From a virus, in IMG/VR virus record IMGVR_UViG_3300030333_006346, positions 1 through 23,122 of that record: a DNA stretch of 23,122 nucleotides. One strand, written 5' to 3'. Numbering within the stretch: position 1 is the stretch's first letter; the number at the start of each line of letters is the position of its first letter. The notes beneath the pieces are model-generated. The model made no database searches, was not told the DNA's origin, and was given only the letters and a program-made list of their open reading frames with translations. Below are positions 2,335 to 16,220 of the stretch, one piece after another. Both the position numbers and the translations under genes were made by a program.

Positions 2335-2874
2335 ATGGAAGACGAATCAGAACGCCCTGAACCGACTTTACCGCCCCCGGAAGGACTACAATTGGTCCCT
2401 CGAACGGTGGTTCCTGCGGGTGAGTCCGAAGTTGTGGCTATGTTGGCGGAGCAGACCCGGTTTGACGGTAACGATGAGTTAAAATCGGCTGCAAAAAGCC
2501 TCCTTGGCGCCGGGTATACCGTGGCTACCACGGCCCGTAGGCTCGGAATTCGGCCAACTACGGTTTGGTCGTGGTCAAAAGAGCCCGAATTCATAGATGC
2601 GATTCAGGATGGGGCCGAAAGACGCCAAAAAGTGCTTGGTGAGGGGCTGCAAGAGGCCGCAGAAGCGGCATTGAGCGCTCTTTTAGAGGTGGCTACGGAC
2701 GTTGGGGCCCAGCCCAGGGACAGAGTCAAGGCATCAGAGGCTATATTGGACAGATGTGGGATAACTCCGCAGTCTGAGTCCACTGAAACCCGCGTAGGTG
2801 TTACAGTAGACGTGGATTTCGACGAACGATTGGCCCGAATCGTAGCTGGTAGCGCAATATCGGGCTCAAAATAG
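2335..2874 (+). CDS. terS: Probable terminase small subunit (HTH DNA-binding protein)
   Basis: The 179-residue protein has a disordered acidic/Pro-rich N-terminus (1-45). A helix-turn-helix follows (about 51-83), with GAGYTVATTARRLGIRPTTV and then WSWSKEPEF. After it come helices (85-142) in the register expected for an oligomerisation region, including RVKASEAILDRCGI. This arrangement is typical of small terminase subunits of the phBC6A51-like HTH type. TerS recognises the packaging site and delivers DNA to TerL. The start has only a G-rich stretch (GGGGGT) directly before the ATG, a poor ribosome binding site. It lies on the opposite strand and about 10 kb from the large subunit, an unusual separation. 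A phage transcription regulator is the main alternative. Confidence 0.7.
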   Translation: MEDESERPEPTLPPPEGLQLVPRTVVPAGESEVVAMLAEQTRFDGNDELKSAAKSLLGAGYTVATTARRLGIRPTTVWSWSKEPEFIDAIQDGAERRQKVLGEGLQEAAEAALSALLEVATDVGAQPRDRVKASEAILDRCGITPQSESTETRVGVTVDVDFDERLARIVAGSAISGSK

Positions 2875-2892
2875 CTAATATAAGGAAGAATC

Positions 2893-3183
2893 ATGCACTC
2901 ATCTGGACCAAAACTAATGATTATTGCGAAAAAGGAAACAATGGGTGAATCATGTCCTAGTTACGATGGTGATTCTTTTCTTGAGGCGAAGAAAAAGATG
3001 ATTCACGCAGATCCAGAGCCTGATATGGACCATATGGAAGAAATGCGGCATATCGCTGGAAAGCTTCACGAATGTGCCGACAGATTGCAGGAAATGTCGG
3101 GTGAATCCATGGATGAGACGGAAGAATCTAAAGATTCTAAAGAATCTAAAGATGATTCGTACGGTGATCCTGTAGAGGCCTGA
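2893..3183 (+). CDS. Hypothetical acidic protein with a Ser-Lys/Asp repeat tail
   Basis: The ATG at 2893 follows AAGGAAG by four bases. An in-frame ATG at 2941, also preceded by AAGGAA, is a possible shorter start. The 96-residue product is rich in Met, His, Asp and Glu (MIHADPEPDMDHMEEMRHIA), has one helical stretch near 50-72 and ends in an ESK-DSK-ESK-DDS tail. That tail is encoded by a 9-nt tandem repeat at 3124-3150. The family is not recognised. It is the last gene of the rightward group and ends five bases before the terminator hairpin. Confidence 0.72.
   Translation: MHSSGPKLMIIAKKETMGESCPSYDGDSFLEAKKKMIHADPEPDMDHMEEMRHIAGKLHECADRLQEMSGESMDETEESKDSKESKDDSYGDPVEA
3124..3150. repeat. 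9-nt tandem repeat within a coding region
   Basis: Three units, GAATCTAAA, GATTCTAAA and GAATCTAAA, follow each other and encode ESK-DSK-ESK. The units differ by one base. Such short repeats can change copy number by slippage. Confidence 0.8.
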
Positions 3184-3226
3184 CAAAACGCCCGATCAGT
3201 GGAGAGGTACTGACCGGGCGTAAAAT
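3184..3226. terminator. Terminator hairpin, likely bidirectional
   Basis: ACGCCCGATCAGT (3188-3200) pairs with ACTGACCGGGCGT (3209-3221) around an 8-nt loop, with one mismatch in 13 positions. Read leftward, the stem is followed by TTTTGTCA, a good tail for ending the leftward gene 3309-3680. Read rightward it is followed by TAAAATTTG, a weaker tail. It separates the convergent genes 2893-3183 and 3309-3680. Confidence 0.7.
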
Positions 3227-3308
3227 TTGTCGGACTGACCTTGGCGGTCTCGTCAAGGGTAACGCTTACTTATGTAGTGTGTCAACTATCATAGAGGTAC
3301 TATATAGT

Positions 3309-3680
3309 TCATTGGGGTTCATTCAAGTTTAGTTTTTTTAGATTTGTTATTCTAAAGCTATCATCAATTCCCTGCTGTTCTTGTAGCTGATTACACGCCT
3401 CAGCCGTCAATTTGAAGTACTCTTCTGTAGTCATCGAGTCGGGAACTCCGAATTCGATTCGACAAATTACGGGTCTTGTTTCATATATCCCGCACCCCGT
3501 GCATGAGTCGCCGTTATCTTTTGTCGTCGAGACTTTATGTCCACACGATCCATCTTCATTGATAGGAAAGTTGAATCCTAAGTCAGTTTCGTATAATTTA
3601 GCGGTTTCAACCAACTGACCGATATTCGCGCAGCATGCGCCGCATCTTGTACAGGGAAATTTTTCAGCGGAGTTAAACAT
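3309..3680 (-). CDS. YkgJ-type Cys-cluster (zinc/iron-chelating) protein
   Basis: The 123-residue protein has the signature of the YkgJ/UPF0153 family. A CTRCGACC cluster (Cys10, 13, 16, 17) is followed by Cys46, Cys60, Cys63 and the motif Y-E-T-R-P-V-I-C with Cys73. Family members are proposed to bind zinc or iron-sulfur clusters; no precise reaction is established. The start at 3680 is preceded by AAAGG, which lies inside the divergent FmdB-like gene whose ATG is at 3682. It is a single leftward gene among rightward ones and ends before the terminator at 3184-3226. No membrane segment is visible. The domain call is firm, but the role in the phage is unknown. Confidence 0.88.
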   Translation of the reverse strand: MFNSAEKFPCTRCGACCANIGQLVETAKLYETDLGFNFPINEDGSCGHKVSTTKDNGDSCTGCGIYETRPVICRIEFGVPDSMTTEEYFKLTAEACNQLQEQQGIDDSFRITNLKKLNLNEPQ

Positions 3681-3681
3681 T

Positions 3682-3870
3682 ATGCCTTTATATGTATTTG
3701 AATGTAACGCTTGTGGGCGTGTTGCGGAAGTGCTTCAAAAGTTTGGGGACAAGTGGCCTGATTGTGCGAAATGCACTAAGCAAATGAACAAGAAGGTTGC
3801 GTTGACGAGTTTTGCGTTGAAGGGTGATGGTTGGGCGAAAGATAACTACGGCCTTAAAAATACAGGTTAG
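3682..3870 (+). CDS. FmdB-like small zinc-ribbon protein
   Basis: The 62-residue protein starts MPLYVFECNACGR and has two CxxC pairs (Cys8/11 and Cys28/31) followed by SFALKGDGW and a short tail. That is the layout of FmdB-type 'putative regulatory' zinc ribbons, which in phages are small proteins of unknown role. The ribosome binding site GGAG (3670-3673) lies within the divergent neighbour, eight bases before the ATG. The start codons of the two genes are separated by one base. It probably shares a rightward transcript with 3907-6455. Confidence 0.88.
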   Translation: MPLYVFECNACGRVAEVLQKFGDKWPDCAKCTKQMNKKVALTSFALKGDGWAKDNYGLKNTG

Positions 3871-3906
3871 TTATGTTATTCTTGGTTTCTGTGGAGAATC
3901 GTTGTC

Positions 3907-4143
3907 ATGTTCAAAAACATACGTGCAGGTCAGTTTAAAGTAGTCACTCCCTGGGGCAAGTACCAAAAAGGTAAGCGTCGGGCGAAGAAGAAAAAGAAAG
4001 CGGGTACCCTTTACGCGGACCAAGACTTTAGTGGGAGCCCAACGTCGACACCGGTTGACATGTTTAATCAGCCCGCACCCACTCCCTCGACACTTCGAAG
4101 TCTGCGTCAGCGACGTAAGTCTTTTAAGCGGGATATCATATAG
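3907..4143 (+). CDS. Hypothetical small basic protein
   Basis: The product has 78 residues and is strongly basic, with KGKRRAKKKKKAG at 22-34 and a second basic patch at the C-terminus (RSLRQRRKSFKRD). A Pro/Thr/Ser-rich linker lies between them. The ATG at 3907 follows GGAGAA at about 10 bases, and the stop precedes the next ATG by only two bases. Such composition suggests binding of DNA or RNA, or of acidic virion partners. No fold is recognised. Confidence 0.7.
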   Translation: MFKNIRAGQFKVVTPWGKYQKGKRRAKKKKKAGTLYADQDFSGSPTSTPVDMFNQPAPTPSTLRSLRQRRKSFKRDII

Positions 4144-4145
4144 TC

Positions 4146-6455
4146 ATGGCTGACATGTCTGAATACGACCAGTTAATGCGTGAGAAGCGTGAAGGTACTT
4201 CAGCGCAATTTCCGCCTCCCGATTACACCAAGCCGTCGTTTTCGATGTTGCCGCCGGAACTTCAACCAAGCGGAGAAGACCCTTTGGCAGGGCTCGGTTT
4301 TGGGGAACTTACTCCTGAGCAGGAAGAGCGTCTAAAGGAAGAAAAGGATCTCGCGTCTGATATAGATCAGATTGGGTACGCGCAAAGGATTCAAGATCGG
4401 GGTGAGCAGCTAAGCTACGCTGGCTTAGCACCAACACTTTCAGGTCAGGTAACTGGTTTTTTTGGTGATCTTCTGTACGCTGGTGGAGCCGGCGCTCGTG
4501 CCCTGATGGGCCAAGAGGGTGCAGGAACTGAAGCTGCCATGGGCGTTGCTGCGGCTGCTTTGCCTTTGATACCAATTGGTTTGCTCGCAAAGTCTGCGAA
4601 AGTATTGGGTAAGTATCCTGAGTCTAAAACAACCAAGGAAACGAGAGACCTGTACCGTAAGTATCAAGATCGTGTCGAGGCTGGTGAGATTACTGGGGAG
4701 CAGGCAGCAAAAGAATTGGCGCCTAAAATGGAGGAGGCGGCCAAATATTTGGTTTCGACGAATAAACCTGTTCGAAAGAATCCCTATTCTGATTGGATTC
4801 CTGAAGATGCTCTTCAAACGCTTCAGGCATATCCCGACACGAAAGCTGCAAATCTTGCCCGTTCGGTCATGCGTCAGCATGTGAATATGGTGAAGATGGG
4901 TAAGATGACTCGTGAGCAGGCGAAGAAAAGTCTTGCGGCTCCAATGAAGTCATACGCAGAGCATGCGGAGCGTCAGGCTGGTGATGTAATGGCCCAGGCG
5001 CGTAGCAAGGCTGCATACGCGACACGCTCCAAGAAAAAGGGTAAAGTTTCCGACGACCCTCGCGCATCGTTTGAGGGCGAGGATCGGGCACTGAAAGCCC
5101 AAGAAAAAAAGGCGGCACAGGAGACTACTGAGGCTCAGCCGAGAGAGTGGGAGAAGACTTATTATTCTCGTGATGCCGAAGGAAAAGTTACTGGTGCTCG
5201 AAAGCTTCGTCCTGGTGCTCGGTTAGATTTAGAGAATCGTAGATCAGAGTGGCGTAGGCTGCCCGCTAAAGTGCGTGCGGAGACTCCTGAACCGAAACTT
5301 ACAGATGCTGACTATTATGACGTTGGTACGGCTCCTAAGCCTTATTTGGAGGGTGCTCGCGGGCAACCTGCTGAACCAAAAAGAGGACCTGAGTACGCGC
5401 ACCAGAAAAAGATTCGTGAGTACGACGAGGCTCAAAAACAAAGATCCCAGCTTGCCGAAGCCTCTTTTGATCCTTTGACTTCAGCGATTCAGCGTGCGGG
5501 CTATGCAACGGAGGATCGTGCTGCCGAGGCCGCGAGGAGGGCTTCTCGCCGTGCTGCGATTAGGGGTGAGCCTAATTGGAACGACAGTGAACTTGCGTTT
5601 ATTCGCGCTCAAGAGAATGTCAGTCCGAATCTTCCGCAGAACGAGGCTCAAGTTAAAGAGTTTCTGTTGGATCTACGCGAAAACAATAAGCGTGTTGTTC
5701 TTAACGATGAAGGTGGATTTGAGATTTTGGACGAGGCTTCTCTACTTAAGGCAGAGGACATGCCTGAAGTTGATCCAGACTTTTTGAAGTCTTTGAAGCA
5801 GGGTAAGCGTGAAGCGAGTGGTCCTGTTCGTAAGGGGCGCAAGCCGAAGCCAACGGAAAAAGTAGATCGTGAAGCTTTGCGTGCCCGTCGTCGTGCTCAG
5901 ATAGCTGAGTCAAAACCAAAAGATGCAAGACCTGCGATGCAGAGGATTCGTGATTTGGAGGAATCTCCTGGTTTCGATCTGGACGCGCAAGAGGCATTTG
6001 AGCGTGAGGTTCGGGAAGAGCAAGCCGCTGCTCGAGGTGGTTTTGTTGGTGACGAGGCCGACTATCTTGATCAGGTTGAAGCCGCGAAGGATCAAGCGAG
6101 TAGGGATCGTCAGTTGCTCGAAGATGAAATGTTTGAGCAGGCTAAGCGCGATTCTTACCCGACAATGTCTGAGCGTGAGGTCTTGGAGAACCTGGACGAA
6201 GTGAAGCGCACATTTAAGGACGATCCTGATGCGATGAAAGAAATTGCTCGCATCGAGCGCGAAGCCCGACGAGGTGACTTATCAGATTTAGACGCAGTAA
6301 AAGCTGAATTTTCTATCGAAGATATGGATACGTTTAAGCAAATTCGTCGAGTTGAGCGAGACGCTGCTAAGCAATCAGCTTTGAGTAAGGAAGAGTATTT
6401 ATACGAAAACCTACCAGCTAAAGTATTAGACGCTCTGGCGAAAAGAATTGAGTAA
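4146..6455 (+). CDS. Large charged, partly repetitive protein; possible internal virion/ejection protein
   Basis: The 769-residue protein has a Pro-rich acidic N-terminus and a Gly/Ala-rich hydrophobic stretch (about 100-152), including GVAAAALPLIPIGLLAKSAK. The remainder is mostly charged, helical Lys/Arg/Glu-rich sequence. Two internal duplications are visible. Residues 175-202 match 247-274 (EITGEQAAKELAPKM versus KMTREQAKKSLAAPM), and two C-terminal units near 686-709 and 718-742 share an F..(D/E)D..(A/T)(M/F)K.I.R.ER(E/D)A pattern. I recognise no family. A long helical protein with one membrane-like segment beside structural genes would fit an internal or ejected virion protein, but this is inference. 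It starts two bases after the previous stop with a weak site (GCGGGAT). Several shadow frames overlap it. Confidence 0.85.
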   Translation: MADMSEYDQLMREKREGTSAQFPPPDYTKPSFSMLPPELQPSGEDPLAGLGFGELTPEQEERLKEEKDLASDIDQIGYAQRIQDRGEQLSYAGLAPTLSGQVTGFFGDLLYAGGAGARALMGQEGAGTEAAMGVAAAALPLIPIGLLAKSAKVLGKYPESKTTKETRDLYRKYQDRVEAGEITGEQAAKELAPKMEEAAKYLVSTNKPVRKNPYSDWIPEDALQTLQAYPDTKAANLARSVMRQHVNMVKMGKMTREQAKKSLAAPMKSYAEHAERQAGDVMAQARSKAAYATRSKKKGKVSDDPRASFEGEDRALKAQEKKAAQETTEAQPREWEKTYYSRDAEGKVTGARKLRPGARLDLENRRSEWRRLPAKVRAETPEPKLTDADYYDVGTAPKPYLEGARGQPAEPKRGPEYAHQKKIREYDEAQKQRSQLAEASFDPLTSAIQRAGYATEDRAAEAARRASRRAAIRGEPNWNDSELAFIRAQENVSPNLPQNEAQVKEFLLDLRENNKRVVLNDEGGFEILDEASLLKAEDMPEVDPDFLKSLKQGKREASGPVRKGRKPKPTEKVDREALRARRRAQIAESKPKDARPAMQRIRDLEESPGFDLDAQEAFEREVREEQAAARGGFVGDEADYLDQVEAAKDQASRDRQLLEDEMFEQAKRDSYPTMSEREVLENLDEVKRTFKDDPDAMKEIARIEREARRGDLSDLDAVKAEFSIEDMDTFKQIRRVERDAAKQSALSKEEYLYENLPAKVLDALAKRIE

Positions 6456-6473
6456 GTTCAGTCATTGAAAAAG

Positions 6474-6482
6474 TGTTATAGT
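6474..6482 (+). promoter_or_regulatory. Candidate extended -10 promoter
   Basis: TGTTATAGT fits an extended -10 element (TGn followed by TATAGT), with no good -35 box at 16-18 bases. A start near 6489 would give a 65-nt leader carrying the two hairpins before the decoration-like gene at 6554. The position, in a 98-base gap between genes, supports a separate transcription unit. Confidence 0.35.
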
Positions 6483-6509
6483 AGTGTCACGCGATTTTGC
6501 GTATTGAAA

Positions 6510-6541
6510 TCCCCTTGAGGGACTGAAACCCCCACGAGGGG
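6510..6541 (+). promoter_or_regulatory. Tandem leader hairpins before the decoration-like gene
   Basis: Two short hairpins follow each other. The first is TCCC-CTTGA-GGGA (6510-6522); the second is CCCC-ACGA-GGGG (6530-6541). The second ends three bases before the ribosome binding site GGAG (6544-6547). They could stabilise the mRNA or gate translation. Confidence 0.45.
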
Positions 6542-6553
6542 CTGGAGAATAAA

Positions 6554-7393
6554 ATGGCTGGTGCAAGATTTAAGCAGACTCAAATTTATCCTGGTGTAAC
6601 CAAGCATCGCTCAAACGCGGTAAAGGTTTACTGTGATGGTGCTGTTGCCGCTAACGATATTATTTCTGTTACCGGTGTACAGGGCGACTTTTTGAAGGTT
6701 TCCAAGGCTGATGGTGACGGGGCGGCTACTCTGAATGAAGGCTTGCTATACGTTGCCGACTACGCGGCTGCAGACGGAGACTACACCCCTGTCGCACTGC
6801 CTTGGAAGCTTGTCGAGAGCGTGGACACTTCAGGCTCTACAATTGGCGCACCTGTTTTCTTGTCTGATACGCCGGGTTCATTCAGTTTGACCCCTGGAAC
6901 TATGGCGACGAAGGTTGGTACGGTCTTGTCTGTTCATGCGTCTACGGGGCAAATCTTGCTTTCGCCTCAAGCCTTTGCTGCTGCTGACGGTATCGCTTAC
7001 GCCGATTCCACATCAGTGGTTCAAGGTTCGGCCCACGACACTGACTTTGAGATCACACAACCTGCGGGAACGTTTCTCACTGACTTGGGTCTCGTTGTCA
7101 CCACAGCGATTGCAGGGTCTTCCGGTACCATTAACATTTCAGCGGGTACCGCTGCCGGTGGGGCTCAAATTTGTGTCGCTGCGGCTCTAATGAGTTCGAA
7201 CACGGCAGTAGACATTGGCTCGGTGCATAGTGTTGCTTCTGGTGCTACAGGCGAGGGTGACGCTGCGCTGACATTTAAGGCAGAATCACCTCTGTACTCA
7301 GCGACTGCTCGTACGATTCACATCCGTCATGCTGCAACCGCTCAAGTTACCGCTGGTGTTGTTCGTCCGTACATTAAGTATCAGTACGCATAA
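6554..7393 (+). CDS. Capsid decoration-like protein (DUF2190-like N-terminal domain)
   Basis: The ATG at 6554 follows GGAG by six bases. The 279-residue product is almost all beta-type, Ala/Gly/Thr/Val-rich. Residues 1-145 carry the pattern of head decoration proteins of DUF2190 type: VYCDGAVAANDIISV, then LNEGLLYVADYAAADGDYTPV, then VGTVLSV and GQILLSP. Residues 146-279 form a second beta-rich domain that I do not recognise, ending VRPYIKYQYA. It has its own candidate promoter, leader hairpins and a strong terminator, so it is probably transcribed alone and abundantly. A role in coating the capsid, or as a head fibre, is inferred. It lies in a different unit from the major capsid gene and a second decoration-like gene. 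Confidence 0.78.
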   Translation: MAGARFKQTQIYPGVTKHRSNAVKVYCDGAVAANDIISVTGVQGDFLKVSKADGDGAATLNEGLLYVADYAAADGDYTPVALPWKLVESVDTSGSTIGAPVFLSDTPGSFSLTPGTMATKVGTVLSVHASTGQILLSPQAFAAADGIAYADSTSVVQGSAHDTDFEITQPAGTFLTDLGLVVTTAIAGSSGTINISAGTAAGGAQICVAAALMSSNTAVDIGSVHSVASGATGEGDAALTFKAESPLYSATARTIHIRHAATAQVTAGVVRPYIKYQYA

Positions 7394-7410
7394 GATAATT
7401 AGACAAAGAA

Positions 7411-7446
7411 AAGCCCCCGGTAGCTTAGGCCATCGGGGGTTTTTTA
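7411..7446. terminator. Strong bidirectional intrinsic terminator
   Basis: CCCCCG (7414-7419) pairs with CGGGGG (7434-7439), with wobble and A-T pairs extending the stem to 7411-7442. Rightward, TTTTTT follows (7440-7445). Leftward, the stem is followed by CTTTTCTTTG. It ends both the rightward decoration-like gene and the long leftward operon, which converge here. Confidence 0.88.
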
Positions 7447-8382
7447 TTATGCGTTGCGAATGAGTTCAGCTTCTCGCTGTCCCGCTTTTTTGAGCGCCAT
7501 CATCATTTCTTCAAACGTCTGTGGGTTGCCGCCCTCTGTTGCAGCAGCAGCATCCGGCTTCATATTCATAAGCTTCATGCCTTCGGGCACGGGCTCTGGT
7601 TCAGGTGTCGGTTCTGGCTCTGGCTCTGGCTCTGGTTGAGGCATAAGGGCCCGAGTCATTGCGAGTGACTGATCTATATCGAACCCGCTTTTCCAAGCCT
7701 TTAGGAAGTTCTCGAAAGCCTCGTCATTTTCGTAGACGTCTGAGGCATGAGTTGTGAGGTATTCCTCGACATTGTCTACCTCACGCTCCGTAATTGCGGC
7801 CTCGAATGATTGTATTTTATTTTGTACTTCCAGATGCTGCTTAATCGCCTCATCCCTGGCCTGGACAGCCTTTTCGAGTTCTTCCCCAAAGCTGGACTTA
7901 ATTTTTTCGTGCTCTGCCTCGGCACGCTCTCTCAACGCTTCGAGTGCTGACTTGTGAGCGACTTTAAGGCTTTCGATCTCTTTTTGTTTCTCGACCATTG
8001 GGTCCACGTCACCGTGGAGCCACTGCATCACCTTTTGCTCTTGTTCTCGTGCCCTGGATAGCGTTCGCTCGGCCTCTCGTCTTTGAGTTGAGAGTTCGTC
8101 GAATTTCTTTTGGTATCCCCGAGCCCAATTTTGGTACTTGGTTTCGAATCCTCGAAGCATCGAACCCTGCATATTTTCGCTGAGTTCGTTGAACCATTGT
8201 TCTTGGCGAAGGCTTTCAAGTTCGCCATTCCAATCGAATACTTCTGGCGCTGGTTCAGAAACATCTTCCACAGGCGCAGCTTCATCCGCTTCGCCAGAAA
8301 CCTCTGCTGTTTCTGCAGCCTCGGACGTTTCGGCAACCTCAGTCTGCTCACCTTCAACGGCTTCGCTATCTTCTTCCCACAT
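7447..8382 (-). CDS. Probable capsid scaffolding protein
   Basis: The 311-residue protein has an extremely acidic N-terminus (1-50) and a long coiled-coil region (about 88-200, for example SLKVAHKSALEALRERAEAE). A helical segment (201-245), a Pro-Glu repeat linker (249-268) and a C-terminal helix (288-311) follow. Scaffolds commonly combine a long helical middle with a short C-terminal helix that binds the shell, and this gene is last in the portal operon. Scaffold proteins guide shell assembly and then leave. The start at 8382 follows the previous stop by one base and uses GAGGG within the preceding gene. There is no visible protease, so maturation cleavage cannot be judged. A tail or internal protein is the alternative. 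Confidence 0.68.
   Translation of the reverse strand: MWEEDSEAVEGEQTEVAETSEAAETAEVSGEADEAAPVEDVSEPAPEVFDWNGELESLRQEQWFNELSENMQGSMLRGFETKYQNWARGYQKKFDELSTQRREAERTLSRAREQEQKVMQWLHGDVDPMVEKQKEIESLKVAHKSALEALRERAEAEHEKIKSSFGEELEKAVQARDEAIKQHLEVQNKIQSFEAAITEREVDNVEEYLTTHASDVYENDEAFENFLKAWKSGFDIDQSLAMTRALMPQPEPEPEPEPTPEPEPVPEGMKLMNMKPDAAAATEGGNPQTFEEMMMALKKAGQREAELIRNA
7591..7640. repeat. GGCTCT-type microsatellite encoding a Pro-Glu repeat
   Basis: Imperfect hexamers of the GGCTCT/GGTTCT type run through this stretch of the plus strand. On the minus strand they encode the Pro-Glu linker (residues about 249-268) of the scaffold-like protein. Slippage could vary the linker length. Confidence 0.75.
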
Positions 8383-8383
8383 A

Positions 8384-8860
8384 CTACATACCCTCTGGCG
8401 GCATCATTTCACCCGGAGGCATCCCCTCTGGCCCTGCGGGTGGCATTCCTCCTGCAGGTGGTCCGCCCATAGCACCGCCTTCACCACGGGCTGCGACCAT
8501 TTCAAGCTGCATAAGGATATCAAAATCTGATGCGATCATGTCTGAAAGTTCTTGTGGTGTCTTACCAGCAAGGTTTGGGATTTGTTGTGCCGCATCATAA
8601 AGAGTTTGTGCTCGTTCTTCGGTGGCGCCCAACGTTTCCATCAACGGTGAGAGGTCGACACCCTCAGTAGCTTCCGCTTCCGCAGCTTCCCCCTCTTGCT
8701 CTTCCATAGCGCCCTCTTCAGCCATTTCAGCACCCTCAGCGGCTTCTGGCGGCGCTTCGGCGCCCACCCCGGCCTCTGCATCGGCAGCGTCAAGCAGTTG
8801 CTTTAGCGCGTCTCTTTGTGCGGCGTCTTCTTCTGGGGACATTGGTTGTTCTGCAGCCAT
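8384..8860 (-). CDS. Hypothetical acidic Ala/Glu-rich protein with a Gly/Pro/Met-rich tail
   Basis: The 158-residue product has an acidic Ala/Glu-rich region (8-70), then a compact helical part (DLSPLMETLGATEERAQTLY and LAGKTPQELSDMIASDFDIL, about 69-118). A Gly/Pro/Met tail of some 30 residues follows. The ATG at 8860 follows AGGATAG at five bases. Its stop is one base from the scaffold-like gene, suggesting coupled translation. The acidic character fits a partner of the scaffold or portal. No family is recognised. Confidence 0.78.
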   Translation of the reverse strand: MAAEQPMSPEEDAAQRDALKQLLDAADAEAGVGAEAPPEAAEGAEMAEEGAMEEQEGEAAEAEATEGVDLSPLMETLGATEERAQTLYDAAQQIPNLAGKTPQELSDMIASDFDILMQLEMVAARGEGGAMGGPPAGGMPPAGPEGMPPGEMMPPEGM

Positions 8861-8878
8861 GGTACTATCCTATTGCAT

Positions 8879-8896
8879 ACTGGTAAGATTACCAGT
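8879..8896. repeat. Near-perfect hairpin in an intercistronic gap
   Basis: ACTGGTAA (8879-8886) and TTACCAGT (8889-8896) are perfectly complementary, with only two bases between them. The site lies in the 43-base gap between the 84-residue gene and the acidic 158-residue gene. It is the longest gap in an otherwise overlapping operon. No T-run follows on the transcribed strand, so it is more likely a processing or stability element, or an operator, than a terminator. Confidence 0.6.
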
Positions 8897-8903
8897 GGGG
8901 TTA

Positions 8904-9158
8904 TTAATTTTGTTCCCGGTATTCCTGAAATAGATCAGGCCTCATTAGTTCGAAAGCAGAATTGATCCCGATCGAACGAATAAATTTATTCGGCACACTA
9001 AGTTGCTCTCCAGTTGTCCGATCTTGAACAACTTTTGCGTCTCTGATTGTATCGTCTTTTACTTCCCGGAGAGACCTGTTTTTTTGTCCTGCGATATGGT
9101 GGGCGTACTCAACGAGTTCGATATCTGATAACAGGCTTTTTTGGCTTGGGTCAGGCAT
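8904..9158 (-). CDS. Hypothetical 84-residue protein
   Basis: The ATG at 9158 overlaps the preceding stop (TGATG), with AGGAA seven bases upstream. A GTG one codon earlier is possible. The protein begins MPDPSQKSLLSDIELVEYAH, is mostly helical and charged, and ends MRPDLFQEYREQN. There are no cysteines, signal peptide or membrane segment. It is translationally coupled to the zinc-ribbon gene. The family is not recognised. Confidence 0.78.
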   Translation of the reverse strand: MPDPSQKSLLSDIELVEYAHHIAGQKNRSLREVKDDTIRDAKVVQDRTTGEQLSVPNKFIRSIGINSAFELMRPDLFQEYREQN

Positions 9159-9619
9159 CACTTATTTCCTGCAAGTTGCGCTGGACTTTTTGTCGGCTTT
9201 CGACCTTCGGCGGTAAGTCTTTTATTGTGCGTTGAAATTTCTTTCATCATTCGATCGTCGAGACCCTTTGATTTTTTTCGTTTCCAACTGTTGTGTTTCA
9301 TGGTCTCGAGTCGATCTGCTTTTTCGGCTGCGTTTTCGCCTTGGATATTGACTCGTTTACCGGGGAAGCGCTCTTCGATTGTTTTGATACAGCGGTCGTA
9401 GTCTTCTTTGGTTTCGGCTTTGCCGAGTACGCCAAAGTCGACTGCGGCGAATGATCCTGGTCCCTGACCATGGATGGCGCATGTGAAGCCTTTGAAACTC
9501 ATCTTGCGCTCGCTACCGCACTCTGGGCAGTCGGGTGGTCCCTCTGAGGTACGGTAGAACACTTCGTACTCAAAGAAGTCACAGCCGGTACATTCGATAT
9601 TGTTTGTTCTAAAACTCAT
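9158..9619 (-). CDS. Zinc-ribbon protein (FmdB-like N-terminus) with a basic C-terminus
   Basis: Residues 10-34 hold two CxxC pairs (Cys10/13 and Cys31/34: ECTGCDFFE and DCPECGSERKMSF). Spacing and hydrophobic pattern resemble FmdB-type ribbons. A Cys47/His50 pair is also present. The rest of the 153 residues is basic and helical, with WKRKKSKGLDDRMMKEIS and a Lys/Pro tail. The ATG at 9619 overlaps the stop of the previous gene (TAATG). It is the second zinc-ribbon protein of the window, here inside the portal operon. Binding to nucleic acid or to a capsid/portal partner is possible but not shown. Confidence 0.82.
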   Translation of the reverse strand: MSFRTNNIECTGCDFFEYEVFYRTSEGPPDCPECGSERKMSFKGFTCAIHGQGPGSFAAVDFGVLGKAETKEDYDRCIKTIEERFPGKRVNIQGENAAEKADRLETMKHNSWKRKKSKGLDDRMMKEISTHNKRLTAEGRKPTKSPAQLAGNK

Positions 9620-10245
9620 TAATCTTTGACGTCCTCATACTCTTCGAACATTCGCTCCCATTCATCGGCCGCCTCTTGTGCTTTACGAACCTTTTCGGGG
9701 TCGGCATAGAAGTCTTGTCTGGCTTTTGCTTTTTTGGCCGATTCCTGGAGGAAATTTATGTAGTCTTGTTCGGCTTCTGCCTGTGTCATTTTTTGCCCCT
9801 CGAACATTCCCGTACCTTCCATACGTTGAGTTATTTCGTCTTCTATTTGATCGGGGTCTACGTCTCCGTGGATTTTTGGGTCCAAACCGTATTTCTCACG
9901 CAATTCACCTCCCACGTCACCGTAAAATTTATCTTCTGGACCTACGGTATATTTTTCGTCCGCAGCCTGAAAGAACTTCTCGACGGCATCTTTACCGGCG
10001 TCACCGGTGTCATCTTCCATCGGCGGAAAAAATGATGGTCGTGGCTTGTCGATCTTTGCTGCGTGCTCGTCTTGTGCTTGTCGCTTTAGACTGTCGAGTT
10101 TTGTGGCGATATCAGGTTTTTGACGTTGTTGGATAGCCAAGTCATACTTAAGCTTTTGAGATTTCGTTTTGACCCCCGCTGGGCGTTGGATTGTTCCAGT
10201 ACCTTCGGGCCCACCAGTCAACTTGTATGTCTTTTTGTCACTCAT
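9619..10245 (-). CDS. Hypothetical 208-residue charged protein
   Basis: The product is charged throughout and probably mixed helix and disorder. The N-terminus (MSDKKTYKLTGGPEG) is Lys/Gly-rich, the middle holds acidic and aromatic stretches, and the C-terminus is helical (AKKAKARQDFYADPEKVRKA). Its ATG at 10245 sits in an ATGA overlap with the 60-residue gene before it. It is downstream of the portal gene. There is no cysteine motif or membrane segment, and the family is not recognised. A role in head completion or assembly is inferred only from position. Confidence 0.8.
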   Translation of the reverse strand: MSDKKTYKLTGGPEGTGTIQRPAGVKTKSQKLKYDLAIQQRQKPDIATKLDSLKRQAQDEHAAKIDKPRPSFFPPMEDDTGDAGKDAVEKFFQAADEKYTVGPEDKFYGDVGGELREKYGLDPKIHGDVDPDQIEDEITQRMEGTGMFEGQKMTQAEAEQDYINFLQESAKKAKARQDFYADPEKVRKAQEAADEWERMFEEYEDVKD

Positions 10246-10424
10246 TTCTTTTTCTTCCCGAAGGGCACGGTGAGTTTAACGCCTGCTTTTTGCTTTGGAA
10301 TGTTAGCTGACAAAGTAAGGGATGCGTTTCCAATAGGGATTCGAACACCTTGTTTGGTGATGTACTGTCGGATTGATTCTCTTTTTGCGCCTGGTGTGTA
10401 ACTTTTTTTCTTTTCGTCACTCAT
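10242..10424 (-). CDS. Hypothetical 60-residue basic protein
   Basis: The gene starts in a TAATG overlap with the portal stop. Its GGAGAAG ribbosome site lies in the last codons of the portal gene, and its own TGA overlaps the next ATG. The product is basic, with probable beta strands (GVRIPIGNASLTLSANI) and a Lys-rich end. Its N-terminus (MSDEKKKSYTPG) resembles that of the following gene (MSDKKTYKLTGG). The tight coupling on both sides supports a real gene despite its length. Confidence 0.75.
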   Translation of the reverse strand: MSDEKKKSYTPGAKRESIRQYITKQGVRIPIGNASLTLSANIPKQKAGVKLTVPFGKKKK

Positions 10425-12208
10425 TATGCTTCTCCTTCACGGACGGGAGCCCCGCCCCCTGGTACGGCTTCTTCCGGACTCGGTAGATTTATTCCCGCCT
10501 GCTCTGCGATAGATTGTCGCATTTTTGCTGCTTCCTCGGGAGGCAACTGTTCCATCATTTGTTGCAGTTGGGCGACCTGCTGTGCTTGCAGATAAGCTTC
10601 TCCGCCAGCAGCACCACCGAGACTTGATTGTGCCTGCATTTGGGCCATTTGACCTTGTTGTACCATTGCTTCCTGCTCCATCGCCTCGAGTTCTGCTTCG
10701 GGAATAATAATTCGACGCGACAGGCCCATTCCTGAAATCACCTCTTCTGTGAGTCTTCTGATGTCGACATTTGGGTTTTCTGCGAGGAATGGAATCAACT
10801 GGAGCAAACTCTCAAGCATGATGCTTGGGTTTTTTCTGATTGGGTTGTATGACACCATTTCGAAGTCAACTTGGATGTCTCTCAAGTCTTTGTGCGCCAA
10901 TTCGGCCCAACGCCGATCACCCGCAATACGAACAAGGCGAGGCTCGCGCATATACTTCTTACTGAGGTAAAAGACTTTTCTCGCCACGTCTTCGATGGCG
11001 TCATTAAGGTGTCCCTCTCTGGTGGCGAGCCTGGTTCGCATTTGTGCGTCGATGATCGCCATTTCCGTGGCGGTTCTAGCACCCACAACCTGTCCTCGGG
11101 CGGCTTCAGCAAGTGCTGAAATAAAAGCAGCATCGTCTTCCTGGCGGGCGACAAATTCTTGGACGCCAGCGGGGTTTTGCGGTTGAGGCATTTCGTAGAA
11201 TAGCGTAGCGAGAGTTCTTAATGTTTCGCTATTTGACGGGTTAATTCCGATAAATGACCCGACACTTGCTTCGACGGCTTTATTTAGGTCTTCTTCTGTA
11301 ATTCGACCGGAATCGTACAGGATTCTCGGGATCTGCAGGTATGTGATCTGCTTCATGTGGGTAAGCAGATCATTGATGGTTTCTTGTTGTTTAAGAACAA
11401 GTTGAACTTCACTGAGGCCCAGACAATCGATACCTGACTGGTTCAGGCTAAACATTGAGTACGGAATGTAATCAATCTTATCTTCGAATACTACAGCGTC
11501 AGCTTGTTTTACGTAGTGTTGTATCAGTCCGCGTTCGCGATCATAGTATTCATAGATAGTCACCCACTTGAAGGCATCGCGAACTTGTTGTGTGTCGCTT
11601 TGTTGGTTTTTATCCATTAACCATTTTGGGTAGCGGTCAGGCGTTACATCCGTCACCAAATCAGCTTTATATAGCCCCGAGCGTACACGGTCTTTGAATT
11701 CTTCGAACGAGATAACTGTTGCTTCAATCCAGTAGCGAATGTCATCTGGATCTCTTGCGGTGAGGTCAAAGAACAAAGATGATGGGTTTACGGCACGAAC
11801 GATTGGCATGTCTCGTTCTGCGTCCCACCCGGTTTTAAAGATTCCTCGTTTGCAGAGAACTGCGTCGATTAGCGCTGTGGAGGCTTTTCGACGGAACTTG
11901 TTTGTCCGTAAAATATACTCAAGCAGCCCTGTGACCGAAGGTGCGGATTCTTGTGAGTTTGGTGTTCTCGCAATTGCGGCAACTGTTGGGTTTGGCCCCA
12001 ACAGTGCACTTACGGCTGTGTCTGCGATAGCGTAGATAAGGTTCTTTGAGCAGAGATATGCATCCATTCTCGATGAACCGAGATCGCTGTCAGACGAGGA
12101 GAAAAACTCACCTCGATAAAATCTACGCGCTTTATCGAATTGTGTTTTTTCTGATCGCTTGTAAAAGTCTAAGTGTCGATCTATTAGTTTCGATAGCTTG
12201 GATGACAT
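10424..12208 (-). CDS. Portal protein
   Basis: The 594-residue product has the length and character of a podovirus/P22-like portal, the dodecameric ring through which DNA enters. It starts with a charged helical region (IDRHLDFYKRSEKTQFDKAR). Features expected of portals follow: KRGIFKTGWDAERDMPIVRA, then NPSSLFFDLTARDPDDIRYW, then WVTIYEYYDRERG, and a long helical stem (LSEVQLVLKQQETINDLLTH). The C-terminal 110 residues are rich in Gln, Met, Ala and Glu and may form the barrel. The start at 12208 uses AGGTG, which overlaps the previous stop. Position after TerL and before the scaffold is the usual order. Family choice is by pattern only. Confidence 0.88.
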   Translation of the reverse strand: MSSKLSKLIDRHLDFYKRSEKTQFDKARRFYRGEFFSSSDSDLGSSRMDAYLCSKNLIYAIADTAVSALLGPNPTVAAIARTPNSQESAPSVTGLLEYILRTNKFRRKASTALIDAVLCKRGIFKTGWDAERDMPIVRAVNPSSLFFDLTARDPDDIRYWIEATVISFEEFKDRVRSGLYKADLVTDVTPDRYPKWLMDKNQQSDTQQVRDAFKWVTIYEYYDRERGLIQHYVKQADAVVFEDKIDYIPYSMFSLNQSGIDCLGLSEVQLVLKQQETINDLLTHMKQITYLQIPRILYDSGRITEEDLNKAVEASVGSFIGINPSNSETLRTLATLFYEMPQPQNPAGVQEFVARQEDDAAFISALAEAARGQVVGARTATEMAIIDAQMRTRLATREGHLNDAIEDVARKVFYLSKKYMREPRLVRIAGDRRWAELAHKDLRDIQVDFEMVSYNPIRKNPSIMLESLLQLIPFLAENPNVDIRRLTEEVISGMGLSRRIIIPEAELEAMEQEAMVQQGQMAQMQAQSSLGGAAGGEAYLQAQQVAQLQQMMEQLPPEEAAKMRQSIAEQAGINLPSPEEAVPGGGAPVREGEA

Positions 12209-12216
12209 GCTCGCAC

Positions 12217-12498
12217 CTATGAGTACTGCTTATTAATCACAGTGTTTTGATCCATTGCAGCGATACTATCGATTGCTTTTTGGGCACTTCGTGTGTCTTC
12301 TGCTCGAGCAAGCTTCTTTGCGCCGTGAATCAGATCGAAGATGTTTGATACGCCACCCGCCAGTTTAGACAATCCGGGAATGATGCCTGTTCGTTGAGGA
12401 CTAAGTTCGTGGGATCGATCTTTCACGCGAAACTCTGGGTTTCTTCCTGTGACTTCAGCCCACTTTTCGTCTGTCATTTCGTCAAGATTTTGCGCCAT
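12217..12498 (-). CDS. Hypothetical 93-residue protein between TerL and portal
   Basis: The ATG at 12498 has GGAG eight bases upstream, and that site overlaps the last codons and stop of the preceding gene. The protein starts MAQNLDEMTDEKWAEVTGRN, is charged at the N-terminus and amphipathic in the middle (IIPGLSKLAGGVSNIFDLIH), and ends in a helical stretch. No membrane span is convincing. The family is not recognised. Its position between large terminase and portal suggests a small head or packaging protein. Confidence 0.78.
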   Translation of the reverse strand: MAQNLDEMTDEKWAEVTGRNPEFRVKDRSHELSPQRTGIIPGLSKLAGGVSNIFDLIHGAKKLARAEDTRSAQKAIDSIAAMDQNTVINKQYS

Positions 12499-12503
12499 GG
12501 TAG

Positions 12504-12767
12504 TTACTCCGTAATTTTTTCGACGTCGGCTTTCAATGATCCGTCGGGGTTGTATGAGGCTCGAATCAAAGCTGATTTATCCCAAAGCCCTTTGAACTTA
12601 GATAGTGCGTCACCTTCAAGGGCTTTTCCCGTGATGCTCGTAACACCTTTTGCTTTAGCTTCGTCTTGTGCCTTTGCTTCTGGCTTCGCGCTAGCAACGG
12701 GGTCATCTGTTGGAGGGGGCTTTGTGTTTGGCTTAAAAGTGCTTTTTTGTTCGTATGTGTTGGCCAT
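12504..12767 (-). CDS. Hypothetical 87-residue Lys/Ala/Pro-rich protein
   Basis: The ATG at 12767 follows GGAGTTAATC, in which the terminase stop (TAA) is embedded in the ribosome binding region. The N-terminal half is probably disordered and rich in Lys, Pro, Ala and Asp (PPPTDDPVASAKPEAKAQDE). The C-terminal half has a short hydrophobic pattern (LSKFKGLWDKSALIRASYNP). No family is recognised. The coupled arrangement is the best evidence that it is real. Confidence 0.75.
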   Translation of the reverse strand: MANTYEQKSTFKPNTKPPPTDDPVASAKPEAKAQDEAKAKGVTSITGKALEGDALSKFKGLWDKSALIRASYNPDGSLKADVEKITE

Positions 12768-12769
12768 GA

Positions 12770-14419
12770 TTAACTCCAGCTAAGTGACGCGGGTTTAAAA
12801 GGTGAAATTGCGTTTTGTTTTTTGTGACGCTTAATGTCGTCAAGCTGCCTGATTGTAACTTGTCCTGCAGTATATGTGTTTTCCGGCTCTTTTGCGGGTC
12901 GATGAAACGTTCGTTTTGAGAATATATCTGCTGCCATAACAGCAGTTCTCGCTCTATCAAAGTGGTGAAGTATGCCGTCTTCTCCGCGAACACGCTTCTT
13001 TTTAGATCCGTCATAGTTCAAAAGTTGATGTAGCGTTCCCCTGCTCTGGATGACGATATCTTTCTCTCGGAGCATTTGAACTAATCTAGCTTCTGACTCC
13101 TGAACCCGTTTTTGAGTTGCGTACCAGCCTGGGTGATTTCTGTCCGTCCACAAAAGATTTCGCGTCCCCTGGTCTTTTAGGATTGCGATACAGGCGGTTG
13201 CGTTAGACTCAACTGCGAGTAGTGCCTGATTGTACCTCGCTTGAATTGTTTTGAGTCTTTGTGCGAATCGGTCTGGCGTTTCTCGATCTTCCCAGAACGC
13301 AACCTCTTTCCAGTCAACGGCATCCCATACGGTGAGGGCAGACTTATCGCCTGTACTACCGAAACCTGCCGGGTCAGCAGTTATTAAATACTGTCTACCC
13401 GGCATTGGGTCTTCGAATTCGTGGCACCCCCAAGGCGACAATTCTGGGTCCGCCTTTGCTTTTGCCAGCCATGGCTTCAAGACTTCTGCGGGCATCACTG
13501 GGTTGGTTGTTCCCAGCCATCCATCGTAAGCGTCTGATGGGTATTTACATGAAAACAGTCTGGAATCGCCGACAAACTCTGTGTTTAACCCTCGTCTGCG
13601 AAACGCAAGATTGTATTTGTTCATCCCTAAGTGGCGCTTCATGTACTCCAACTCAGCCAGTGTTGGTTCGAAGTCCTCAACCATTTCTCGGCAGCTATCG
13701 TCTTCCCACCATTCAAGGAACAGCGGCGTAAACCTACTTGTCCCCTCCAGGGCTGACCTCCACATTTGCTCGTGATGTGAGCCTGCTCGACCTGGCGTTG
13801 ACTCGAGAATGACTTTGGCGTTGGGCCGCTTGTTTACAGTCGGGAAGATGTTGATGGCAGCTTTACGTTGCCACTGCGCTTCACCAAACTCTGTGATGAC
13901 GAGGCGGTCGATTGAGCGCCCGATCGCAGGTGACCGTCCCCCAGCCGTTAGAACTTTGATGCCGCCGCCATGTATGAACTGCATCTGTGTTGCTCCGGCC
14001 TTTCGACCTGGCGCAAGGGGCATCCGCACATCGGCGGGCAACCTGTTGTACGCAAATAGTATCCGTTCAAAGATGTCTTCTGCCGTGTCTTGACGTTCTG
14101 CAATAAGCAGTCCCTTGACGCCGCTGAGGTACATACAGTCTCGAAGCAGCAACATAACGGAAACAGTTGTTATCTTTGCCTGACGAAATTTGTTTACCAT
14201 GAGCCATCTGTTTTCGTCGTAGGCTTTCAACAGTTTTTTCTGCGTATGTGTAGGCTCCATGTAACCCGTAGACTCATCTTCTCTGACAATTTGACACATT
14301 GAGACAAATGCGTCGGGCGTGGCAAATAGAGCCCGAATTTTGCCCTGGTGTAAGCCAGGAGCCTCCGCAAACTCAGCACCACCAATTTCTTCTTTTTGTT
14401 TTTGTTTCGCATTAGCCAT
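12770..14419 (-). CDS. terL: Terminase large subunit
   Basis: The 549-residue ATPase-nuclease drives DNA packaging. Visible features in order are a Walker A-like NKFRQAKITT (76-85) and a Walker B region DRLVITEFGEAQW (171-183). LESTPG (205-210) fits motif III. An RNase H-like nuclease follows, with ITADPAGFGSTGDKSA (Asp349), LLAVESNATA (Glu404) and HHFDRARTAVMAADI (a late Asp, 488 or 498). The Walker A element deviates from GxxxxGKT, as in many terminases. In Walker B the usual Asp-Glu is Thr-Glu, resembling the 'SE.A.W'-type variants of some phage terminases. It is first in the leftward operon. The start at 14419 has no strong ribosome binding site. Confidence 0.93.
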   Translation of the reverse strand: MANAKQKQKEEIGGAEFAEAPGLHQGKIRALFATPDAFVSMCQIVREDESTGYMEPTHTQKKLLKAYDENRWLMVNKFRQAKITTVSVMLLLRDCMYLSGVKGLLIAERQDTAEDIFERILFAYNRLPADVRMPLAPGRKAGATQMQFIHGGGIKVLTAGGRSPAIGRSIDRLVITEFGEAQWQRKAAINIFPTVNKRPNAKVILESTPGRAGSHHEQMWRSALEGTSRFTPLFLEWWEDDSCREMVEDFEPTLAELEYMKRHLGMNKYNLAFRRRGLNTEFVGDSRLFSCKYPSDAYDGWLGTTNPVMPAEVLKPWLAKAKADPELSPWGCHEFEDPMPGRQYLITADPAGFGSTGDKSALTVWDAVDWKEVAFWEDRETPDRFAQRLKTIQARYNQALLAVESNATACIAILKDQGTRNLLWTDRNHPGWYATQKRVQESEARLVQMLREKDIVIQSRGTLHQLLNYDGSKKKRVRGEDGILHHFDRARTAVMAADIFSKRTFHRPAKEPENTYTAGQVTIRQLDDIKRHKKQNAISPFKPASLSWS

Positions 14420-14597
14420 GTCTTAACTTTATCACGGAAAAAGTTTTTGTTCGAAAGTGTTTGCACTTTTCTAAGTAATACTGTAAACCTAAAACACGCA
14501 CCTAATTTGCGGTTGGGTAGCCTATTAAGGTCCAGCGAAACGCACCAGGCAGGCGTGACCAGGCTTAAATTCTTCTAACACTCTATGTGAGAACAAA
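14420..14597. promoter_or_regulatory. Divergent promoter region between TerL and capsid operons
   Basis: This 178-base gap separates the leftward terminase start from the rightward capsid start and must contain promoters for both operons unless transcription enters from elsewhere. It holds the dyad AAAGTG-TTTG-CACTTT (14454-14469). It also holds a repeated ACCTAA (14487-14492 and 14500-14505) and the repeat CCAGGC around AGGCGTGA (14548-14567 region). Candidate -10-like TATTAC (leftward) and TACTGT (rightward) have no convincing -35 partners, so exact promoters are not called. Confidence 0.5.
14454..14469. repeat. Dyad AAAGTG-TTTG-CACTTT
   Basis: A perfect 6-bp inverted repeat with a 4-nt centre lies 35 bases upstream of the TerL start, in the divergent control region. 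It could be an operator for a dimeric regulator or a leader hairpin of the leftward mRNA. Confidence 0.5.
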
Positions 14598-15659
14598 ATG
14601 ACTATCAGTACTGAACTACTGAATACTACGTTCGCGGATCTTCGCGGACCTCTGGTAAATTCGTTTGTTCGCAGTAATGAACTGTTTGAGGCACTTAACT
14701 CGAAAGCACGTATGCCAATGGAAGGCGGAACTAAGATTGAACGTTCCTTTTCCGGTGGCGCTCCTGCTCGCGGTGTTGGTGTCTATGTCGGTGACGAACT
14801 GCTGAACATGACCCGTCGTCAACAAATTCGTAAGTTTGAGGTTGAGCCTCATCGTTTGGTAATGGCAATTAACATTCCCAAGCGTGAACTCGCCCAAAAC
14901 TCTGGTAAGTTGGCAATTATTCGTCTGATCGAGGAATATCCTCAGACTTCTATGGAAGCTGCAAAAGCTGACTTGAACAAGTTCCTGCTCACTGGTGTGA
15001 GTCGCGGCCTTGCTTTCAACACGTCAGAACTTTTGGGCTTTAACACCCTTAACGGTGTTCATACTTCTGGTATTGGAACTGGCGTAACTCACGGTCTTCT
15101 TGACTTCGTCGCTCCGACGTCTCAAAACCAGAAGGTCCAGAATGTCACTAAGGATAGTAGCTACTTCCACTTCAACCAGTACAACGATATTTCGTCCTGG
15201 AGTGCCGACGGTATGGCGCAGCTTCGTAAGACTTATCGTCAGTGTGCTCACTATGCTGGTGGAATTGGTAAGGGTCCAGACATGATTTTCATGGATGACG
15301 ACACCTACACTAACTTTGAAGATGCTCGAAGTGAAAACGTTCGCGTAACACTTGTTGATGACAAGATTGATAAGAGTAACACCTTGGGTCTTAACCTCGG
15401 TCTTGCTTCTGTTACCTCGTCTATCGATTTGGACCGCACAGATACCACTGCTTTTGGTTCTGGCGCTCCTGCCGACGGTGTTACTTACATGCTCAACACA
15501 GACTTTATCGAGTTCCCAATGCTTGAAGCCCCGAATGTATCGGAGTTCAAGGAGCGGGTTGGCGATCAAGACGTGGTGACTGCAATCTTCGCAATGCAAG
15601 GCAACCTGATCTGCACCAAGCTAGTGGCGCAGGGATGTGTGTCTGGCGGCGCGGTATAA
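14598..15659 (+). CDS. Major capsid protein (HK97-fold type)
   Basis: The 353-residue protein starts MTISTELLNTTFADLRGPLV. It shows the order expected of one family of phage major capsid proteins: an N-terminal helical part (NSFVRSNELFEALNSKARMP), then GGTKIERSFSGG, a YVGDELLNMTRRQQIRKFEV strand/E-loop-like region, and helices with REL and LNKFLLTGV. ADGMAQLRKTYRQCAHYAGG, followed by GPDMIFMDDDTYTNFED, is the usual spine/A-domain pair. The C-terminus has VVTAIFAMQGNLICTKLVAQ. Length is typical. The ribosome binding site is modest (GTGAGAAC). It begins the rightward operon, followed by a decoration-like gene. No N-terminal prohead protease delta domain is evident, so a separate scaffold is likely. 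Confidence 0.88.
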   Translation: MTISTELLNTTFADLRGPLVNSFVRSNELFEALNSKARMPMEGGTKIERSFSGGAPARGVGVYVGDELLNMTRRQQIRKFEVEPHRLVMAINIPKRELAQNSGKLAIIRLIEEYPQTSMEAAKADLNKFLLTGVSRGLAFNTSELLGFNTLNGVHTSGIGTGVTHGLLDFVAPTSQNQKVQNVTKDSSYFHFNQYNDISSWSADGMAQLRKTYRQCAHYAGGIGKGPDMIFMDDDTYTNFEDARSENVRVTLVDDKIDKSNTLGLNLGLASVTSSIDLDRTDTTAFGSGAPADGVTYMLNTDFIEFPMLEAPNVSEFKERVGDQDVVTAIFAMQGNLICTKLVAQGCVSGGAV

Positions 15660-15671
15660 AGGAGGTACATC

Positions 15672-16220
15672 ATGGCACAAGGAAATGAATTTGCTACTAG
15701 TGCTAATGTAGTTGACGGCGAGGCCGCTGGGGGCTGGTGGACGGAAACGTACACAACCGAGCAGTATCCTCTGGGCACCACTCGGATTCAGACTGACGTA
15801 CAAGCCGAATCTGGCGTTGCTATCACAGTAACCGACGCAACATGGAACAAGCTTACGGGAGACCGTGAGTGGGTGTTTGTTCAGGCCGCTGAAGAAGTAA
15901 CAGCAGGGAATCTCTGCGAGTGGGATGTCGCAAGCGCCTACTCGGTTGAGCCTGCTGATACTGACGGCTTGAATGCGGGCCTTGCCGCTGGTGTTGCTGA
16001 CAACACAATCGCAGCTTCAAGTTACGGTTGGATTGTCAAGCGCGGCACTTGTGTCGTCAAGGCTGGTGGAAGTGTTGTTGCCGGTAGCCCTCTGGCTGCT
16101 GACGGCACGGACGGTCAGGTTGATCAGGGTGGTACCAAGGGAGACACCGTTGGTTTTGCTCTTGAGGAAGACGGTGCTGTCGCTTCGGGTCATGCTCAAG
16201 CGTACATCAGCATTCCGTAG
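15672..16220 (+). CDS. Decoration-like/head-fibre protein (DUF2190-like)
   Basis: The ATG at 15672 follows GGAGG by six bases, the best ribosome site in this operon. The 182-residue product begins MAQGNEFATSANVVDGEAAG. It contains the decoration-type pattern DGLNAGLAAGVADNTIAASS, YGWIVKRGTC and VKAGGSVVAGSPLAADGTDG, then TVGFALEEDGAVASGHAQAY. It follows the major capsid gene by 12 bases, the usual place for a capsid decoration or stabilising protein. It is followed by a terminator-like hairpin. A second decoration-like protein (6554-7393) shares the general pattern but not obvious sequence identity. Confidence 0.8.
   Translation: MAQGNEFATSANVVDGEAAGGWWTETYTTEQYPLGTTRIQTDVQAESGVAITVTDATWNKLTGDREWVFVQAAEEVTAGNLCEWDVASAYSVEPADTDGLNAGLAAGVADNTIAASSYGWIVKRGTCVVKAGGSVVAGSPLAADGTDGQVDQGGTKGDTVGFALEEDGAVASGHAQAYISIP

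Follow-up and report, generated by a model that had tools for sequence, protein, structure and literature searches.

In tailed phages, a co-oriented order of the head genes is the established arrangement, running usually, though not obligatorily, from the small terminase subunit (TerS) through the large terminase subunit (TerL), the portal and the scaffold to the major capsid protein (MCP). In phage P2 (NC_001895) and the Peduoviridae, a unit with TerL and portal is transcribed away from the MCP unit, which also holds scaffold (O) and TerS (M), and two divergent promoters with a DNA activator site lie between the units. This divergent layout is kept by P2-like Burkholderia phages (PMC3091744). 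The Bradyrhizobium phage ppBjS10J-1 (OP596615, a 44.6-kb record) and related prophages carry TerL, portal, scaffold and MCP on one strand. Here, we analyse the virus record IMGVR_UViG_3300030333_006346, positions 1 to 23,122, which is classed as linear and is probably a fragment; this whole 23,122-base stretch is referred to as the window. In the window, the TerL, portal and scaffold genes form a leftward block (7447-14419), whereas the MCP gene, homologous to that of ppBjS10J-1 (26% identity, phrog_9953), opens a rightward unit, and the sequence between TerL and MCP encodes a conserved RNA.

Gene identities were checked against PHROGs and Pfam profiles, and the features that carry the argument are the following.

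2335-2874, plus strand: TerS candidate, matching phrog_2538 'terminase small subunit' (E-value 1.9e-8), with a helix-turn-helix (HTH) and a helical domain.
6554-7393, plus strand: capsid decoration or head-fibre protein, with a conserved N-terminal and an exchangeable C-terminal domain.
7405-7446, both strands: putative bidirectional intrinsic terminator between convergent units, from its sequence and its fold on either strand.
7447-8382, minus strand: scaffold protein, by a profile match to the canonical-order scaffold family; the gene ends the portal unit in relatives.
10424-12208, minus strand: portal (P22/T7-like), matching PF16510 P22_portal (46.6 bits, cut-off 26.1) and phrog_156 (E 1.7e-21).
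12770-14419, minus strand: TerL, matching phrog_2 (E 3.8e-22).
14461-14489, plus strand: promoter-like element of the MCP unit (TTGCAC, 17 nt, TAAACC).
14498-14555, plus strand (covariance-model match 14485-14562): conserved structured RNA, presumed 5' end of the MCP transcript, from covariation and covariance-model matches.
14598-15659, plus strand: MCP, matching phrog_9953 (E 1.3e-22).

Homologues of TerL, portal and MCP are all present, as in the head and packaging module of a tailed phage (the phrog_9953 profile spans residues 5-346 of the 353 of the MCP), and the co-oriented TerS-TerL-portal-scaffold-MCP order is absent. The scaffold protein has no convincing match in PHROGs or Pfam and belongs to no named family; its family profile, aligned with that of the gene family lying directly upstream of MCP in canonical-order phages, gives an HHalign probability of 73% (E 3e-5), against only 0.3-1.6% in four mismatched profile pairings used as controls. 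A first-pass annotation of the window had placed TerS on the plus strand about 10 kb from a minus-strand TerL, with portal and scaffold transcribed leftward and MCP rightward. The measured gap is 9.9 kb, the profile matches and strands agree with this description, and the split recurs in every scorable relative.

This split order is a trait of a whole widespread group of uncultured phages and no local oddity. Scans of IMG/VR with TerL and with MCP returned 66 and 80 loci, respectively, and in the combined set (L001-L147, L001 being that of the window) TerL and MCP lie on opposite strands in 141 of the 141 scorable loci, the remaining six having no MCP match. A wider TerL scan gave 80 loci, 74 of them new, with opposite strands in 63 out of 63 scorable ones. 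As loci share contigs, the count was made on distinct TerL and MCP sequence pairs, and all 127 have the two genes on opposite strands. The deepest members found, the L439 group, whose MCP is 48% identical to that of the window, show the inverted order where TerL is present, together with the RNA. In the branch L116-L139 and its relatives, the TerL-MCP gap widens to 0.8-1.8 kb and the RNA stays beside MCP. With regard to other sources, the bacterial genomes searched with the TerL profile yielded no relative. When the window proteins were compared by tblastn with the phages collection, nothing was close to TerL (the best 40 matches, to T4-like phages, cyanophages and similar, are about 22-26% identical), the portal had no match, and the MCP had one, in the Bradyrhizobium phage.

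The window and P2 both decouple packaging from the capsid, and because the P2 layout is similarly divergent, the order of the window can be regarded as a variant of a known theme. However, it is not P2-like, since the scaffold is on the other side, in the TerL unit, TerS is elsewhere, 9-25 kb off in the window group, and the proteins are not close: the tblastn comparison with the phages collection puts no P2 TerL, portal or MCP near those of the window (for TerL, among the best 40 matches). Moreover, the space between the units, occupied in P2 by promoters and a DNA site, holds a conserved RNA in the window.

The MCP has relatives of about 21-28% identity in ppBjS10J-1, other viral contigs and bacterial genomes, and these allow the two orders to be compared. 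Among 146 viral or phage loci of the canonical order, 140 carry at least one of TerL, portal and scaffold, on the MCP strand in 140 of 140. The same is true of 31 of 34 bacterial-genome loci (31/31 on the MCP strand), and where all four markers are found (18 loci), 17 have the order TerL-portal-scaffold-MCP, L378 being different. In ppBjS10J-1 and related prophages, the portal matches phrog_332 and the scaffold family is matched too. In a tree of 36 MCPs, a single branch with a support of 100/100 parts the two orders, and one switch is needed. The co-oriented order is taken as the older one in part because it is what is established for tailed phages generally. Reversing 7447-14419 recreates the complete canonical order of the phages with a homologous MCP, and for this reason one old inversion is preferred: the best reading of the change is that, in an ancestor, the block from TerL and portal to scaffold was turned round with respect to MCP and the tail genes, the new order then becoming fixed. 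We consider it fairly probable that such an ancestral inversion took place and left two back-to-back units, the MCP transcript starting with a folded RNA that acts in cis.

Some observations weigh against this history. The branch between the two orders in the MCP tree is very long, no relative on it was found, and TerL and portal are only remote homologues between the two groups (HHalign probabilities 38% and 41%, E about 3e-4). This remoteness, together with the distance of the window TerL from every phage of the collection (22-26% identity among the best 40 matches) and the lack of any portal match there, would also be expected if a TerL-portal-scaffold cassette from another phage had replaced the original one in reverse orientation, with no inversion in place. 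We nevertheless hold such an import to be unlikely, though it deserves serious attention: the scaffold family still matches that of the canonical-order phages, the TerL of both groups match phrog_2 and their portals phrog_332, and an imported cassette need not have restored the full canonical order upon reversal.

The first-pass annotation had described the head module as seemingly inverted between a terminator at 7411 and the junction at 14420. Both ends are correctly placed and the order of the relatives is indeed recovered by reversal, but there is no sign of a recent or local event; since every scored relative shares the order, the inversion would be an old group trait. Remnants of recombination, suspected near 7393-7446 and 14420-14597, were not seen at the block ends, where no inverted repeats occur (longest exact inverted match 8 nt, against a shuffled mean of 8.2), as is to be expected of an old event. 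The junction 14420-14597 was rejected as a recombination remnant and is better described as a regulatory region between divergent units, in which the conserved RNA and a promoter-like element lie. That the block could be an active phase switch, flipping between orientations, is suggested by nothing beyond the orientation itself; with ends devoid of inverted repeats and a single orientation in all scored relatives, this idea is hardly credible and is refuted as far as assembled contigs allow. At the other end of the block, the hairpin 7405-7446 folds on either strand (-24.8 and -18.0 kcal/mol; z-scores -4.5 and -2.8), which is the behaviour expected of a terminator serving convergent genes in both directions.

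The 178 bp separating TerL from MCP (14420-14597) contain a block conserved throughout the group. The consensus derived from a MAFFT alignment of 33 sequences is a hairpin with internal loops. Over its 17 pairs, 93.4% of cells are paired and 10 pairs have changes on both sides; the double-change cells amount to 67, compared with 19.6 +/- 4.1 in shuffled alignments (0 of 500 shuffles reach this number), and the covariation collapses when the pairing partners are slid. In 58 model-aligned sequences, 113 double-change cells are found against 35.5 +/- 7.2 in shuffles, and the number of double-change pairs is not above shuffles (10 versus 9.2). The plus strand, that is, the direction of MCP, is supported by a G-U pair that hardly varies and by the U-G cells. 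Sequence conservation is strong, with near-invariant bases at unpaired positions, in loops and in bulges. It counts against a folded RNA that single sequences fold no better than shuffles (z -0.03 and 0.13), and the case for structure thus rests on comparison.

No Rfam 15 family matched at its gathering score; below it, nothing appeared around the junction except two weak matches on the minus strand (E 1.9 and 8.4), and four related loci gave none. A search of the literature, with most subscription papers and preprints outside its reach, found no description of the RNA or of the phage group. A small conserved RNA, to all appearances folded, that lies at a capsid-gene junction and matches no Rfam family is unexpected to a specialist.

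The covariance model matches once in the window, once in each of five long records and once in each of 11 more (11/11). Among 62 related loci it matches in 60 (all but L140 and L302), and among 59 non-redundant sources in 58 (all but L124); L140 and L124 have the core sequence despite the miss. A pattern scan brought 41 new loci, of which 38 have a model match; L430, L436 and L447, without one, were taken as chance. An open reading frame (ORF) of the MCP family lies directly downstream in 35 of these 38. Of the other three, L431 ends short of MCP; L444 and L454 do have MCP adjoining the RNA, the simple listing having chosen an overlapping ORF. In contrast with the window group, the canonical-order loci have no match in any of the 88 scanned (of 180), the tested loci of ppBjS10J-1 and related prophages included. 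Two matches in bacteria were put down to chance: a search of 200 genomes gave one at E <= 0.001, which lies within a lytic transglycosylase gene in antisense orientation, and one of two other genomes gave one of 21 bits (E 0.05).

The RNA probably lies at the very start of the MCP transcript. The motif TTG[AC] begins 34-40 nt 5' of it in 56 of 59 non-redundant relatives, compared with 7% in shuffles. The spacing from a sigma-70 promoter to the transcription start (+1) is established, and by this rule +1 coincides with the beginning of the RNA; the MCP transcript would then start at about 14496-14498, judging from a promoter-like element at a fixed distance. Less favourable to this assignment are the plain sigma-70 consensus scores (mean 7.7, versus 7.3 in shuffles) and a generic consensus scan of the junction, which did not list the 14461-14489 element. 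In 167 leaders, 41-101 nt separate the 3' end of the RNA from the last base of the MCP start codon.

In the arrangement that we propose, transcription of the two units would set out in opposite directions from the 178-bp region. The leftward one would comprise TerL, portal, small genes and scaffold, and end at the bidirectional terminator; the rightward one would run from the RNA through MCP and the virion genes to, in longer records, a protein of 2,590-2,985 residues and replication genes. The first 60 nt or so of the MCP transcript would fold into the conserved hairpin with its internal loops and, as we infer from its position, act in cis. Concerning the distal genes, the record G016 encodes a giant protein of 2,592 residues (L402:1649-9424, minus strand), with 2,590-2,985 residues in four other long records; that of G016, the only one scanned, carries a phage tail lysozyme domain close to the N-terminus, the rest of the protein being almost without matches. 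The same record encodes a DNA polymerase A fused to an N-terminal uracil-DNA-glycosylase-like domain (L404:17121-19892, minus strand).

The nearest functional parallel to the junction RNA is put of phage HK022. Put-type RNAs suppress pausing and termination by contact with RNA polymerase, and those of HK022, which occur on two long phage transcripts, are located close to the 5' ends. They are cis-acting phage RNAs that act on early genes (PMC9378689). The likeness would lie only in function and position, not in sequence or structure, and membership in this class is not claimed. By analogy, the junction RNA may help RNA polymerase in cis to read the long rightward unit or, as a second choice, protect the capsid message. 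Antitermination is slightly favoured on account of the length of the rightward arm and of the near-invariant bases found in loops and bulges; it must be set against this that no result singles it out and that the computations do not separate the options.

An mRNA-stabilising or ribosome-standby leader of the capsid message, as opposed to an antiterminator, would agree with an RNA that seems to begin at +1 with a paired 5' end, with the short distance (41-101 nt) to the end of the start codon and with the large amounts of MCP presumably needed. As the near-invariant unpaired and bulged bases point to binding by a partner more than to simple clamping of the 5' end, we regard this function as possible but doubtful. 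The strong sequence conservation could also belong to a ligand- or protein-sensing switch, whether a riboswitch or autoregulation by a capsid-assembly protein, tying MCP output to the separately transcribed scaffold; such control of their ratio would make sense where the two are no longer co-transcribed. We think a sensing switch rather improbable, as there is no Rfam match and, in leaders inspected by eye, neither a shared terminator nor a shared ribosome-site pairing is seen 3' of the RNA, hence no evident expression platform. A bolder version of the cis-acting reading, which we put forward only tentatively, is that the inversion gave birth to a new class of phage cis-acting RNA: a new promoter with an RNA at +1 would have replaced the former context of MCP, and this RNA might by itself carry the polymerase through the long rightward arm (capsid, tail and replication genes), or meter capsid against scaffold.

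TerS appears to have had a history of its own. A homologue of 2335-2874 is found in 15 of 25 long records, phrog_2538 itself matching in 13 of the 25, and the long records without one may be fragments. In 15 of 15 records it lies opposite to TerL, on the scaffold side and 9.2-24.8 kb away (for four of the 15, this holds only if the record is taken to be circular). In the window and in G012 it comes after the 1329/1883 gene pair, and in G016, G008, G002 and apparently G025 after a primase-helicase gene; for G002 and G025, where overlapping frames were chosen by the simple ORF caller, its position is taken from the homologue search. Since four of five long maps show it next to the primase-helicase gene, TerS has moved independently of the block.

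With regard to its identity, the first-pass annotation had allowed that a better TerS might lie next to TerL. The two ORFs there, 12217-12498 and 12504-12767 (tblastn matches in 8 and 27 of the 147 loci, respectively), have no TerS match. Nor does the other doubt it had raised, that 2335-2874 is only a regulator, fit the homology to a TerS family and the layout of the protein, an HTH followed by a helical domain with a TerS-like arrangement of helices. The AlphaFold2 model is weak (mean pLDDT, the predicted local distance difference test, 55), and its best matches in the PDB include the TerS of Sf6 and NV1 at E 0.26-0.8. These weak structural matches would suit a transcription regulator, as would HTH matches to DNA-binding families such as transposases, none of which reaches the Pfam cut-offs; the true TerS would then lie unrecognised elsewhere. 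We judge this improbable, given that the top match is a TerS (E 1.9e-8), that the gene is conserved in 15 of the 25 long records and that no other candidate is found next to TerL.

A division of the head genes into three units had also been claimed, and it is borne out, since 6554-7393 on the plus strand encodes a capsid-decoration fold and so adds a head gene to the first rightward unit. In the structure model, residues 20-142 or so are modelled well and the fold resides in the N-terminal domain; the top 14 PDB matches are all phage capsid or head entries, including HFTV1 and phi29 (best E 2.6e-3), the matched 6qvk chain being, as we take it, the phi29 head fibre. The likeness to phi29 head fibre and HFTV1-type decoration proteins concerns this N-terminal domain, whereas the C-terminal part differs from them and is swapped among relatives. 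Alignment of these relatives shows about 140 N-terminal residues kept and C-terminal domains of several types, as if the tip were exchanged.

The remaining annotated genes of the two units are as follows.

8384-8860, 8904-9161 and 9158-9619, minus strand: three small conserved genes of the leftward unit, with tblastn matches in 59, 50 and 68 of the 147 loci, respectively.
15672-16220, plus strand: virion structural protein, matching phrog_29386 (E 1.2e-7).
16291-18183, 18193-18693, 18707-21172 and 21172-end, plus strand: conserved virion or tail genes of the MCP unit, by synteny in relatives; the window edge cuts the last (23121).

Small zinc-ribbon-like proteins with weak phrog_13665 matches (E 0.001 and 0.002) are encoded by 3682-3870 (plus strand) and 9158-9619 (minus strand), and a small cysteine-rich protein by 3309-3680 (minus strand); the latter has no PHROGs match below E 0.03 and presumably resembles YkgJ-type metal-binding proteins.

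Scaffold and capsid proteins have to be produced in suitable proportions, and their genes are usually co-transcribed. As the phages of this group have long kept the two on opposite transcripts, they must set the ratio in another way, and the obvious candidate for such control is the conserved RNA with which the capsid message seems to open. Should this RNA prove to work on the host RNA polymerase or an assembly protein, these widespread uncultured phages would possess a new type of phage control element.

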